Made by a program: the position numbers and the translations under genes. From Serpentinimonas barnesii (lineage in GTDB: Bacteria > Pseudomonadota > Gammaproteobacteria > Burkholderiales > Burkholderiaceae_C), in contig NZ_BAWN01000021.1 of assembly GCF_000696225.1 (NCBI RefSeq), forward strand, positions 1 to 64,000: a stretch of DNA of 64,000 nt, read 5' to 3'. Shown here one piece after another: positions 3,553 through 21,662 of the stretch (the stretch's first letter is position 1; each line of letters begins with the position of its first letter). The notes under the pieces were generated by a model. The model did not search any database. It worked only from the letters and a program-made list of their open reading frames with translations, and was not told the DNA's origin.

Positions 3553-4176
3553 ATGCCCAACCCACCCCACACCTCGCTGCCGCAGCCGTCAACGCCCCCG
3601 GGCGCGCCCGCCCTGCCCGCCCTGCCCGCCCTGCTCCCAACGCTCGGTTTCGACCCGGCCCTGTTGCTGCGCGCCCAAGGCATACGGGTGGTGTTTTTCG
3701 ACATCGACGGCGTGCTCACCGACGCCGGCCTGTACTTTAGCGAAGCGGGCGAGACCCTCAAGCGCTTTCACAGCCTCGACGGCCACGGCATCAAACTGCT
3801 GCAACGCGCCGGCATCGTGGTGGCGGTGGTGAGCGGGCGCGACTCGGCGCCCTTGCGCACGCGCTTGCAGGCGCTGGGTGTGACGCATTTGCGGCTCGGC
3901 CACGAAAACAAGCGGCCTGCCGCCGAAGCCCTCTTGGCTGAACTGGGCCTGGGCTGGCACGAAGCCGCCGCCATGGGCGACGACTGGCCCGACTTGCCCT
4001 TGCTGCGCCGCTGCGCCTTGGCCGTCGCGCCGCCCAACGCCCACCCCGAGGTGTTGCGGCTGGCGCACCACGTCACCACCCGACCGGGTGGACAAGGCGC
4101 GGCGCGCGAACTGTGCGACCTGCTGCTGGTGGCCAGCGGCCAGTACGCCCGCCTGTTGCAGGAGGCCGGTGCTTGA
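3553..4176 (+). CDS. kdsC: 3-deoxy-D-manno-octulosonate 8-phosphate phosphatase
   Basis: HAD-superfamily phosphatase that releases Kdo from Kdo-8-phosphate. At 207 residues it is longer than the roughly 180 typical for KdsC because of a Pro/Ala-rich N-terminus. The catalytic motif [12 protein letters not shown] gives the nucleophile D50 and acid/base D52. VVSGRDS carries motif II, K120 lies in [10 protein letters not shown], and [10 protein letters not shown] near 142-150 is the metal-binding motif. The gene lies 12 nt after kdsD, and its stop overlaps the TTG start of lptC, so the three are co-transcribed. Confidence 0.94.
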
Positions 4177-4859
4177 CTGCCCGCGCCAACTTGGGGCCAC
4201 TGCCCGCAACCGCGCCGGCTGCGGCGCTGCGGCGGCATTCGGCGCGCGCGCTCAAGCGCGCCTGGGATCAGGCCTCGCTGTACCTGCCGGTGATATTGAT
4301 GGGTTTGTTGGCGCTTGGGAGTTACTGGATCATTGGTCGCAGCCCCGCGCCAGCCGAACCGGCTGCAGCACGCGCCCCAGTGCAAGGCCCCGGCGCCACC
4401 ATGCAGGATTTTTTGCTGCGTGACTTTGACGCTGACGGGCAGTTGCTGCTCAAAATCGAAGGGCGTCAACTGCACCATTACCCGGGCCAGGCGCAACTGG
4501 TGGTCGAGCAGGTGCGCATGCAGCAGCGCGACGTCCAGGGCCAGCTCAATTTCTTGCAAGCCGACCGCCTCGAGAGCAGCACCGATCGGACCGTGCACCG
4601 GCTCAGTGGCAACGTGGTGCTGCAACGGCCAGCCCGTGCGGCCACAACCACTCAGGCTGCCGCGCCGGCAGAGGAATTTCGCAGCCAGGCGCTGACCCTC
4701 TACACCCAAGCCCACCGGATTGAATCGGACCAGCCGGTAGAAATTTTGCGCGGCCCCCACCACCTGCGCGCCCAGCGCATGCGCTACGACCAGCAGACCG
4801 GGCGGCTCGAGTTGCAGGGTCAGGTGCGCGCCACGCTGGCGCCTGCCTCGGCGAGCTAA
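4173..4859 (+). CDS. lptC: LPS export ABC transporter periplasmic protein LptC
   Basis: Bitopic inner-membrane protein that passes LPS from LptBFG to LptA in the periplasm. The start is TTG at 4173, overlapping the kdsC stop as TTGA. It is well supported by a perfect AGGAGG at 4160-4165 with 7-nt spacing. The 228-residue product has one membrane segment near residues 36-54 and then a beta-rich LptC domain (FLLRDFDADGQLLLKIEGRQ, and later SQALTLYTQAHRIESDQPVE). In relatives lptA, lptB and rpoN normally follow; here a terminator and an unrelated gene follow instead. Confidence 0.9.
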   Translation: MTARANLGPLPATAPAAALRRHSARALKRAWDQASLYLPVILMGLLALGSYWIIGRSPAPAEPAAARAPVQGPGATMQDFLLRDFDADGQLLLKIEGRQLHHYPGQAQLVVEQVRMQQRDVQGQLNFLQADRLESSTDRTVHRLSGNVVLQRPARAATTTQAAAPAEEFRSQALTLYTQAHRIESDQPVEILRGPHHLRAQRMRYDQQTGRLELQGQVRATLAPASAS

Positions 4860-4906
4860 ACCGCTAGTCTCGCCAAACACCCCGCCCACAACTCTTTTGG
4901 ACCCAT

Positions 4907-4948
4907 AAAAAACTCAACCCCGCAGGCCAATGGCATGCGGGGTTGAGT
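4907..4948 (-). terminator. Intrinsic terminator of the RRM gene
   Basis: A perfect 13-bp inverted repeat, ACTCAACCCCGCA (4912-4924) and its complement (4936-4948), surrounds an 11-nt loop. On the minus strand the stem is followed directly by six T (A at 4907-4912). It ends the RRM gene transcribed from 5437; the stem may also slow transcripts arriving from lptC. Confidence 0.88.
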
Positions 4949-4996
4949 GCTGGCTTTGCTTGAGCGGGTTATGGGCTCAAGCCGTCAGGGGTGCGA

Positions 4997-5437
4997 TCAG
5001 TAGCCGCGGCCACCGCCGCCGCCGCCTTCACGACGGCCACCACCACCGCCGCCGCCACCACCGTAGGGGCTGCGGAACTGGCCTTCGCCGCCGCCTTCAC
5101 GACGGCCACCGCCGCCGCCGCCACCACCGTAGCCGCCACCACCACCGCCGCCACCAAAGCCGCCGCCACCGCTACGGGGCGGGCGCGACTCCATCGGACG
5201 CGCTTCGTTGACCACCAAGCTGCGGCCACCGAGCGACTGGCCATTCATGCCCTCGATCGCCGATTGGGCGTCCGAGTCGCTGCCCATTTCTACGAAACCA
5301 AAGCCTTTGGAACGACCGGTGTCGCGCTCCATCATGACTTTAGCGCTGCTCACTTGGCCGAATTCGCCAAAAGCCTTCTGCAGATCTTCGTCGCGCACCG
5401 TGTAGGGAAGATTGCCGACGTACAGTTTGTTGCCCAT
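4997..5437 (-). CDS. Glycine-rich RRM RNA-binding protein
   Basis: Small RNA-binding protein of 146 residues. A single RRM contains RNP2 (LYVGNL, residues 5-10) and RNP1 (KGFGFVEM, 44-51). The tail from about residue 89 is almost only glycine with RREGG islands and ends in RGY. Bacterial proteins of this type, best known in cyanobacteria, are cold-inducible and act on RNA structure or stability; the exact role here is inferred. The ATG at 5437 has AGGAG 10 nt upstream and removes a non-conserved extension. A promoter and a leader of about 140 nt precede the gene. The glycine tail is encoded by low-complexity GGC/GGT repeats at about 5000-5175. Confidence 0.92.
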   Translation of the reverse strand: MGNKLYVGNLPYTVRDEDLQKAFGEFGQVSSAKVMMERDTGRSKGFGFVEMGSDSDAQSAIEGMNGQSLGGRSLVVNEARPMESRPPRSGGGGFGGGGGGGGYGGGGGGGGRREGGGEGQFRSPYGGGGGGGGGRREGGGGGGRGY

Positions 5438-5585
5438 TGAACCGGGACTCCTGAAAACACGAAAAAACAATAGCGATGGACACCCCGTTGGCACGAAGAA
5501 AGCACTTGGCTGGCTGCAGTGGCACGCGAAACTGACCGATCACCTGAAATGCGTGGCAACACCCGTGAGTGAGCCGCGCCTAGCT

Positions 5586-19735: not shown

Positions 19736-21478
19736 TCAGCGCCGGGTCGGGGCCAAGGTGCTGGGGTGGTTGAGCATGCGGCCAAACAGGGTGGCGTGCT
19801 TCAAGCGGTACACATCGACGTTGTCGAAGCGGGCGCTGAAGCGGCTGTTAAGCAGGCCGGCGTTCAGGCCCGCCGCGCGCGACAGGACGCCGCCGTGGTA
19901 GTCCGCCGTGCCGGGCCAAGCGATGCCAAACTGCATCCGGTTCCCAAACTGATCGGGCTCGGTGACGAACATCGGCGACTGGCGGCCTTCCACTCCGTCG
20001 AGGAAGTTGTTGACCGTGGCCGAATCGGGCGCGGTGCCACCGGCCGGGGCGGCGGCCGAGGGGTTGGTGGCCACGGTGGCCACGTTGTCGGGGGCGCGCC
20101 CGGCGGGCAGGATGTTGGTCGGCGGGGCAATGCCGGCCACTTGGCCCGAGACCACCGTCATGCCACCGGCGTCGCTGTCGGCGGCGGTGACGATCAGGGT
20201 GCGCTCATTGCGGCGCTGGAAATCCAGCGCTTTGCCGATGGCGCGGTCGGTGTCCTCCATGGCGTGCAACATGCCGATGGCGTTGGTGTTGTTGCCAAAG
20301 TTGTCGATCGACTCTTGCTCTGCCACCAAGAAGAAGCGGCGCTGCGCCGGGTTGCGCTGCTGCGCTGCGGCGCGGTTCAGGATGGTGAGCGCGACCTCGG
20401 TCATCTCGGCAAAGGTGGGCGGGTTGAAGCCCGGTTCGGCGGCATCGTGATCGCCCCACAGCACCAAGCGGCTGGGTTTTTGTGGCCCCGGCCCGGTGCT
20501 GCCAGCGGCCATGCCCGCGCGCACGAAGCCGCGGTTGATCAGGTCTTGCTCGTTGCGATCGTTGAAGGTGTCTTGGAAAGCGAACAGGCCCAGCACGCGC
20601 GGGGCGTAGCGTGGGTTGGCTTGCAGCGCTTGCTTGAGGCGCTCGAATTCGGCCCGGGTGCGCACGACGATGAAGTCGTCGCGCTGCGTCGGGTCGTTGC
20701 TCAGGTTGCCGCTGCCCATGGCGTTCCAGGCGGCAACCAGGTTCAGGTCGTCGGTGCGCAGGCTCTGGCGGCTGTTGACTGGGGCGCGGCGCTCTTCGTT
20801 GACGTTGCGGTGCAGGGTGGTGGTGCCTTGGGGCAGCGCGTCGGCCTCGCCGCCGCCCATGATCACCCACGGAGCGGTGTCGTTCATGCCGGTGCGGCCC
20901 AAAATCATCTGGCGCGTGATTTCCTGCCAGTTGTCGCGGTTGCCCACTTCGGCCAAAAAGGCACCGGTGCCGGGCTCGCCGATGTGGCCGTCGTTGACCA
21001 CGCCCACCGGAATGCCGGCGTTGGCGGCTTCGCGCATCAAAGAGCCCCGAAAGCCCGACAGGCTGTTGATGGGCCGGTTGGCGGGCGGCGTCAGGTTGCC
21101 GTCGCCGTCCATGCCAAAAGAGCCAAAGGCATCGACCTTGTAGCCAAAGGCGTGCGTGGTGGCCCCGGCGTGCGAGGTGCCGTTGATCAGGTTGGCCAAG
21201 TGGCCGCGATAGACCGCCTTATTGGGCAAACGGTCCATGTTCGAAATGCCATCGAGCCCATGGAAATACATGCGGTGCGCGGCCCAGTGGTTTAGGCCGG
21301 TGCCGTCGGGGTGAAAGAAGATCACGTTGCCGGTGGGCACGGCCTGCGTCATGGCGGCGCGACCGGGGTCGGCGGCGGCGGGGGCGCGGGTCGCGCTGGC
21401 GGTGCTGGCGCTGGCCAGACCGGCTGCCAGTGTGAGGGCGCAGGCGGCAGAAACCGCACGTAGGCTCAAATTCATCAT
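19736..21478 (-). CDS. Secreted alkaline phosphatase-family protein with altered zinc ligands
   Basis: A 580-residue protein with a cleavable-looking signal peptide (residues 2-29, ending ASASTASA) and the alkaline phosphatase fold. Aligned by eye with E. coli PhoA, retained positions are D58 (PhoA D51, in FHPDGTG), S102 (nucleophile, in NGTSHAGATTHAFGYK), T171, R181, E387, D392, D434 and H528. Two zinc ligands differ: PhoA H331 is N396 (in EQESIDNFGNN) and H370 is S435 (in TAADSDAGG). Phosphomonoesterase activity is therefore probable but metal use may differ. The ATG at 21478 has GGAG at 8 nt; a second ATG follows immediately. It is longer than PhoA (about 470). Confidence 0.85.
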   Translation of the reverse strand: MMNLSLRAVSAACALTLAAGLASASTASATRAPAAADPGRAAMTQAVPTGNVIFFHPDGTGLNHWAAHRMYFHGLDGISNMDRLPNKAVYRGHLANLINGTSHAGATTHAFGYKVDAFGSFGMDGDGNLTPPANRPINSLSGFRGSLMREAANAGIPVGVVNDGHIGEPGTGAFLAEVGNRDNWQEITRQMILGRTGMNDTAPWVIMGGGEADALPQGTTTLHRNVNEERRAPVNSRQSLRTDDLNLVAAWNAMGSGNLSNDPTQRDDFIVVRTRAEFERLKQALQANPRYAPRVLGLFAFQDTFNDRNEQDLINRGFVRAGMAAGSTGPGPQKPSRLVLWGDHDAAEPGFNPPTFAEMTEVALTILNRAAAQQRNPAQRRFFLVAEQESIDNFGNNTNAIGMLHAMEDTDRAIGKALDFQRRNERTLIVTAADSDAGGMTVVSGQVAGIAPPTNILPAGRAPDNVATVATNPSAAAPAGGTAPDSATVNNFLDGVEGRQSPMFVTEPDQFGNRMQFGIAWPGTADYHGGVLSRAAGLNAGLLNSRFSARFDNVDVYRLKHATLFGRMLNHPSTLAPTRR

Positions 21479-21662
21479 CCATTCACTCCAAACTTGGGGA
21501 TTGTTGCGTTGTGGCAAATTGGTGCGGCAACCCACGCAGCCCAAGGGTGAACGACCCACAGGCTGCCTAAGCACCGCAACCCCGCAACCTTAAGTGTGGA
21601 GGATGTAAGCCTGATGAAGCTTGAATGACAAAATCGTGAAACGCTAGCAAGTGCGGGCCGCC

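Follow-up and report, generated by a model that had tools for sequence, protein, structure and literature searches.

The gene of interest lies on the minus strand of a 64-kb stretch of the Serpentinimonas barnesii genome (the window, by which we mean the whole stretch of DNA that was analyzed). It is an intact reading frame of 580 codons that begins with an ATG at position 21478 and is preceded, at a distance of seven bases, by the sequence GGAG. Judged by eye, the N terminus of the encoded protein is a Sec-type signal peptide. Two further genomes of the genus, designated G001 and G002 (G000 being that of the window), also carry the gene, with G002 encoding two copies, a and b. The features at and upstream of the locus are as follows.

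19736..21478, minus strand: gene of the PhoA-like phosphatase (580 aa and a stop codon); the frame is also conserved in G001 and G002
21603..21642, minus strand: Pho-box-like array, comprising four half sites spaced by 11 bases, that begins 164 bases ahead of the start codon
21663..22232, minus strand: gene of the LMWPc family directly upstream on the same strand, given as context with no shared function claimed

From its motif, read by eye, we take the LMWPc-family neighbor to be arsenate-reductase-like. It also adjoins the phosphatase gene in G002, and what appears by eye to be its end is found upstream of the G001 gene.

In a Pfam profile search the protein matched PF00245 with 90.2 bits, where the cut-off is 24.4, and it is the sole PF00245 match in its genome. 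The open frame and this score bear out the first-pass annotation, which had described a PhoA-like phosphatase of 580 residues. The profile likewise matches 7/7 aligned family members and, at 111.1 bits, the distant member L020 introduced below. PF00245 was the only Pfam match at E ≤0.001, and a sulfatase-family identity was rejected on that ground. A structure model of residues 44–580, built with nine sequences, reached a pLDDT of 65.6 and a pTM of 0.77 and was used in place of an earlier AlphaFold model (pLDDT 45.8, pTM 0.58). The best VIA-align matches of the model are PhoA structures (7tm9, Z 35.5, rmsd 3.4, 356 aligned residues, 25% identity; 1kh5, Z 35.3), and solved alkaline phosphatases among the best 50 matches score Z 32.1–35.5. 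Foldseek also ranks alkaline phosphatases first, with TM values of 0.45–0.55 by model length and rmsd of 6.7–10.7 among its best 50 matches. The loops that hold S102 and D526 have pLDDT values below 50. Taken as a prediction, the model supports the alkaline phosphatase fold of PhoA for the window protein.

The catalytic and metal-binding positions were compared in an L-INS-i alignment of eight family members, E. coli PhoA (NC_000913) and seven other canonical members, and in a profile-profile alignment of the family with eight canonical members (probability 99.9). The L-INS-i alignment places D58, S102, R181, E387, D392 and D434 of the window protein at D51, S102, R166, E322, D327 and D369 of PhoA, as the first-pass annotation had it, and the equivalents of these six PhoA residues are invariant in all eight members. 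Both alignments also place N396 at the Zn1 ligand H331 and S435 at the Zn2 ligand H370, again in agreement with the earlier assignment. They depart from it at the remaining Zn1 ligand, H412, for which H528 had been proposed: D526 occupies this position in both. The default MAFFT setting, run on a different set of rows, opened one extra gap and put Y527 there. D526 is favored over its two neighbors because it is invariant in the eight members, whereas position 527 varies among Y, F and V, and position 528 has H in three members (the window protein included), S in three, and F or A in one each. Even the G001 protein, which is 90% identical to that of the window, already lacks H528. Given the alignments and this poor conservation, H528 was rejected as the H412 ligand. 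By misreading the third position, the first-pass annotation had understated the finding, since three histidines rather than two appear to be lost. The codons concerned are listed here, with counts for the eight family members and for the PF00245 comparison rows that cover each site.

21305..21307, minus strand: D58 codon, equivalent to PhoA D51, a shared metal ligand
21173..21175, minus strand: S102 codon, equivalent to the PhoA nucleophile S102
20291..20293, minus strand: N396 codon, at PhoA H331 (Zn1); Asn in 8/8 members, His in 49/49 comparison rows
20174..20176, minus strand: S435 codon, at PhoA H370 (Zn2); Ser in 8/8 members, His in 48/48 covering rows
19901..19903, minus strand: D526 codon, at PhoA H412 (Zn1) with Y527 there in default MAFFT; Asp in 8/8 members, His in 48/48 covering rows
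19895..19897, minus strand: H528 codon, the earlier candidate for H412; His in 3/8 members

The substitutions at H331 and H370 are thus found throughout the family, and the alignments support D526 as the occupant of the H412 position. Measured against a classical zinc PhoA, all eight members have the serine nucleophile, Arg166 and the carboxylates D51, D327, D369 and E322, but they appear to have Asn, Ser and Asp in place of the three zinc histidines, position 412 being read from sequence alignment with one setting a residue off. The titles of structure entries record that the E. coli PhoA single mutants H412N, H412Q and H331Q were crystallized, so loss of a single histidine does not stop folding.

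Changes in the family extend beyond the histidines. All eight members have T101, E168 and G170 at PhoA positions D101, D153 and T155. Among the comparison rows, D101 is Asp in 47 of the 48 that cover it, D153 is Asp in 12 and His in 37, and T155 is Thr in 47 and Ser in 2. K328 is replaced by N393 in every member, at a site that also varies among the comparison rows (K, T, E, W or H). The first-pass annotation had equated T171 with T155, which is doubtful in view of the L-INS-i alignment, where G170, the preceding residue, stands in the T155 column. It had also described an insertion at about residues 440–500; this is present relative to PhoA but is mostly missing in L020. Five further histidines of the window protein (H56, H64, H93, H109 and H223) are invariant in the eight members.

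The comparison set comprises 49 rows that represent 48 distinct proteins (L009 lies inside L013), 41 of the rows having been added from other loci. Because 30 rows are best PF00245 matches, the set leans toward canonical enzymes and is not a random sample. Three rows (L057, L059 and L060) are near-copies of each other, and a few lack particular sites: L006 lacks 369, 370 and 412, L012 lacks 51, 101 and 102, and L074 lacks 51. With L006 and L012 omitted, a 55-row tree was computed in IQ-TREE under LG+C20+F+G4 and drawn with a midpoint root. The eight members are set apart from all other rows by a single branch (support 100/100; stem length 2.57 changes per column), in a tree that has long end branches, long branches that meet (none of those named being in the family), and six rows of unusual letter make-up, two of which (G002 copy a and L015) are family members.

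The family looks rare and patchy. Within the genus, copy a of G002 is 95% identical to the window protein, and copy b, which lies beside it, is 80% identical. A search for relatives matched 8/40 genomes, the remaining ones weakly and in part. Exact short peptide patterns, applied to one genome per species, brought up three metagenome-assembled members with 66–72% identity to the window protein: L014 (Burkholderiaceae), L015 (Steroidobacteraceae) and L016 (Methylococcaceae). Further members could be missed by patterns of this kind. The eighth member, L020, is a distant protein of 436 residues from an IMG/VR scan, with 38% identity in its best tblastn segment and 46–47% in global alignments. Among 399 genomes of the order (E ≤1e-10) only the window's own genome and one canonical protein (L017) were returned, and among 398 genomes of the phylum (E ≤1e-20) only the window's own genome; neither sample brought up G001 or G002, and it is the lack of other members in these samples that gives the impression of rarity. 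The eight members represent five lineages, and it is on these five that the invariance rests because four of the eight sequences are from Serpentinimonas.

L020 lies at 4133–5440 (plus strand) of its IMG/VR contig, between an FkbM-type methyltransferase gene and genes for a GpA-type terminase and a lambda-type portal protein. It is apparently a phage-borne phosphatase, and the protein itself has no PHROGs match. No relative came up when the Streptomyces protein was used in a viral scan, and L020 and L044 as queries retrieved only themselves or identical copies. A DNA pattern for the motif DNFGNxxNA hit 12 stretches, one of which encodes a family member, once more on the L020 contig. Among plasmid records the window protein had one match and L020 had 127, all of them below 60% identity, and all three histidines are present in the six plasmid matches L021 and L023–L027. 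Two phage records gave partial matches. Canonical PF00245 phosphatases with all three histidines are also encoded on four IMG/VR contigs (L042, L043, L044 and L045), and three of these group with E. coli PhoA in the tree.

The family is under purifying selection, as indicated by pairwise dN/dS values of 0.07–0.25 across eight pairs. The window gene has a value of 0.13 against both G001 and copy a of G002. Comparisons with copy b gave higher values (0.25 versus 0.13). The dN/dS values and the intact frame rule out a decaying pseudogene.

The Pho-box-like array upstream of the window gene scores 20 of 28, which is the best score on both strands of the 64 kb (the next is 18), and none of 500 dinucleotide shuffles of the 260-base upstream region reached it. 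Arrays were also found at copy a of G002 (1/500 shuffles) and at G001 (2/500), in each case the best of a 19-kb stretch. The E. coli phoA control gave 0/500, and the pstS controls in G000, G001 and G002 have arrays scoring 19, 21 and 22, each upstream of the match and the best of 3.9 kb. No array was detected upstream of copy b of G002, L014, L015, L016 or L020. The four-site score is an ad hoc measure that was picked after the window sequence had been seen; a score for two half sites was reached by 7, 20 and 71 of 500 shuffles for the window, copy a of G002 and G001, respectively. Copy a is nearly identical in sequence to the window gene, so that G001 and the pstS genes provide a more independent check. 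These matches support putative Pho control of the phosphatase gene.

Several neighborhoods of other family members were also inspected. In G002, the two PhoA-like copies stand in tandem with a gene for a 5'-nucleotidase-C protein (L028:4788–10599, minus strand). Copy b has a different N terminus with a lipobox, and the 5'-nucleotidase-C protein also has a lipobox, both as seen by eye. Genes for DUF1826 proteins and CobW-type GTPases are often linked to zinc shortage. A DUF1826 gene and two CobW-type GTPase genes lie upstream of the L016 family member (L016:1671–4341, plus strand), an arrangement that amounts to proximity only since opposite-strand ORFs intervene.

Serpentinimonas strain A1 is S. 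raichei. This strain has its growth optimum at pH 11, and the fluids of the Serpentinimonas habitat are reported to be highly alkaline and calcium-enriched (excerpts of PMC8513617). Usable zinc is assumed to be scarce in such spring water. Among other phosphatases, PhoD is present in G002 and absent from G000 and G001. PhoX had no match in any of the three Serpentinimonas genomes, and a PhoX identity for the window protein was rejected accordingly.

The ligand changes are best read as altered metal use, as the first-pass annotation, which is supported in part, had already suggested. The case is stronger than presented there: three histidines, and not two, appear to have been lost in the same way throughout a separate group that is under purifying selection. 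We consider it somewhat probable that the protein is an active phosphatase whose metal center is oxygen-ligated and holds a metal other than zinc. A center whose ligands are limited to Asp, Asn, Ser and Glu is suited to hard ions, for example calcium, magnesium and manganese. We infer the metal, activity, mechanism and substrate of the window phosphatase, and zinc scarcity around it, along the following lines. The protein would be secreted and would act as an alkaline phosphatase with the fold of PhoA and a metal center rebuilt from oxygen ligands, and hard divalent metals (calcium, magnesium or manganese) would be bound in place of zinc. Site 1 would consist of D392, N396 and D526, site 2 of D58, D434, S435 and the nucleophile S102, and site 3 of D58, E387, E168 and perhaps T171. 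The two-step mechanism of PhoA would be kept, with S102 taking the phosphate, aided by R181 and the site-2 metal, and with a site-1-activated water then freeing the phosphate from S102. Expression would occur under phosphate starvation and would serve phosphate scavenging in calcium-rich, highly alkaline spring water. Catalysis may differ from that of PhoA beyond ligand chemistry because D101 and T155 are also changed. For site 3, we take His135 of the TAB5 phosphatase to be equivalent to PhoA D153, and hence to E168 of the window protein. According to the title of its structure entry, the His135Glu variant of TAB5 phosphatase was solved with magnesium at the third site.

One alternative is that zinc is still bound, through Asp, Asn and Ser oxygens together with other histidines such as H56, H109 and H528. 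The five invariant histidines are compatible with this idea, and H56 and H109, which lie near catalytic residues in the sequence, are candidate alternative ligands. In the Sphingomonas enzyme, a histidine bridges the nucleophile to Ser47, which precedes Asp49 by two residues (excerpt of PMC3145672). H56 precedes D58 by the same distance and would match Ser47 in position. However, H528 is a histidine in only three members, and every comparison row has kept its histidine at each of the three sites that it covers. We regard retained zinc as unlikely.

A second alternative, to which we give a similarly low probability, is that the enzyme hydrolyzes another substrate (a phosphodiester, a phosphonate ester or a sulfate ester) and that the changed ligands and pocket are an adaptation to it. 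D101, D153 and T155 lie near PhoA's pocket, and their replacement in every member, along with large inserts that flank the active site, would fit such a change. So would the Asp-Asn pair in the calcium site of sulfatases of the same superfamily (PMC5066984, in part), and the only two matches with E <0.001 among BFVD viral models, both of them weak, are sulfatase-domain proteins. On the other hand, PhoA R166 and E322 are tied to phosphate monoester hydrolysis and their equivalents are invariant in the family, the window protein has no sulfatase Pfam match, and the Pho-box-like array together with the 5'-nucleotidase neighbor in G002 points to phosphate scavenging. More improbable still is a protein that is catalytically dead or very weak and has been retained to bind phosphate or a metal. 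A zinc enzyme would presumably be crippled once all three of its zinc histidines are gone, but S102, R181, D58, E387, D392 and D434 are unchanged in all eight members, and the purifying selection and second copy in G002 also argue against it.

An active phosphatase with an oxygen-ligated, non-zinc center remains our preferred reading, and a more specific form of it can be put forward tentatively, namely that the family is a natural PhoA-fold clade in which all imidazole ligands have been exchanged for oxygen and which runs on calcium in calcium-rich springs at pH 11. PhoA is a textbook example of a zinc enzyme and serves as a model of phosphoryl transfer assisted by metals. If this reading is true, a natural clade shows a metal swap on one scaffold without a change of fold and offers a direct test of what the zinc histidines do. 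It would also add to PhoX, PhoD, Psip1 and PhoAaty a zinc-free phosphatase from a genus of serpentinizing springs.

Compared with known systems, the family is closest to the classical PhoA/PF00245 enzymes (E. coli, Klebsiella, TAB5 and mammalian), with which it shares the fold, the serine nucleophile, the arginine and the carboxylates D51, D327, D369 and E322, and from which it differs in having N, S and D for the three zinc histidines and in the changed D101, D153 and T155. PhoK/SPAP of Sphingomonas resembles it as another divergent active site within the superfamily, but that enzyme, as described in excerpts of PMC3145672, has kept the bimetal zinc site (His304, His346 and His491) and lost the third metal and the arginine. 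The Ca-Fe enzymes PhoX and Psip1 are likewise non-zinc phosphatases of phosphate-poor waters, but they have beta-propeller folds (PMC11098088, in part). PhoAaty of dinoflagellates and cyanobacteria is a zinc-independent phosphatase as well: excerpts of PMC6723241 report that calcium, magnesium or manganese restores its activity in a species-dependent manner and that zinc does not. Its motifs have been described (PMC4548154, in part), and the excerpted text of PMC11098088 gives it no sequence similarity to classical PhoA; by that description PhoAaty is set apart from the window family, which matches PF00245. An N/S/D variant of PhoA was not found in the titles and abstracts among the matches listed for zinc-free PhoA-family enzymes. 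Zinc-free function thus has precedent, and its N/S/D realization inside the classical family, as suggested by the alignments, is absent from those listings. We take the sulfatase Asn318 to correspond to PhoA H370. A parallel in ligand chemistry is provided by the formylglycine sulfatases of the same superfamily, which hold calcium by Asp13, Asp14, Asp317 and Asn318, four ligands that include no histidine (PMC5066984, in part). The window protein differs from them in its lack of a sulfatase Pfam match, its serine nucleophile in a PhoA-type context and its retained site-1 carboxylate. On the calcium reading, which we hold as a possibility short of an expectation, the classical family might itself have given rise to a PhoA equivalent of the calcium sulfatases.
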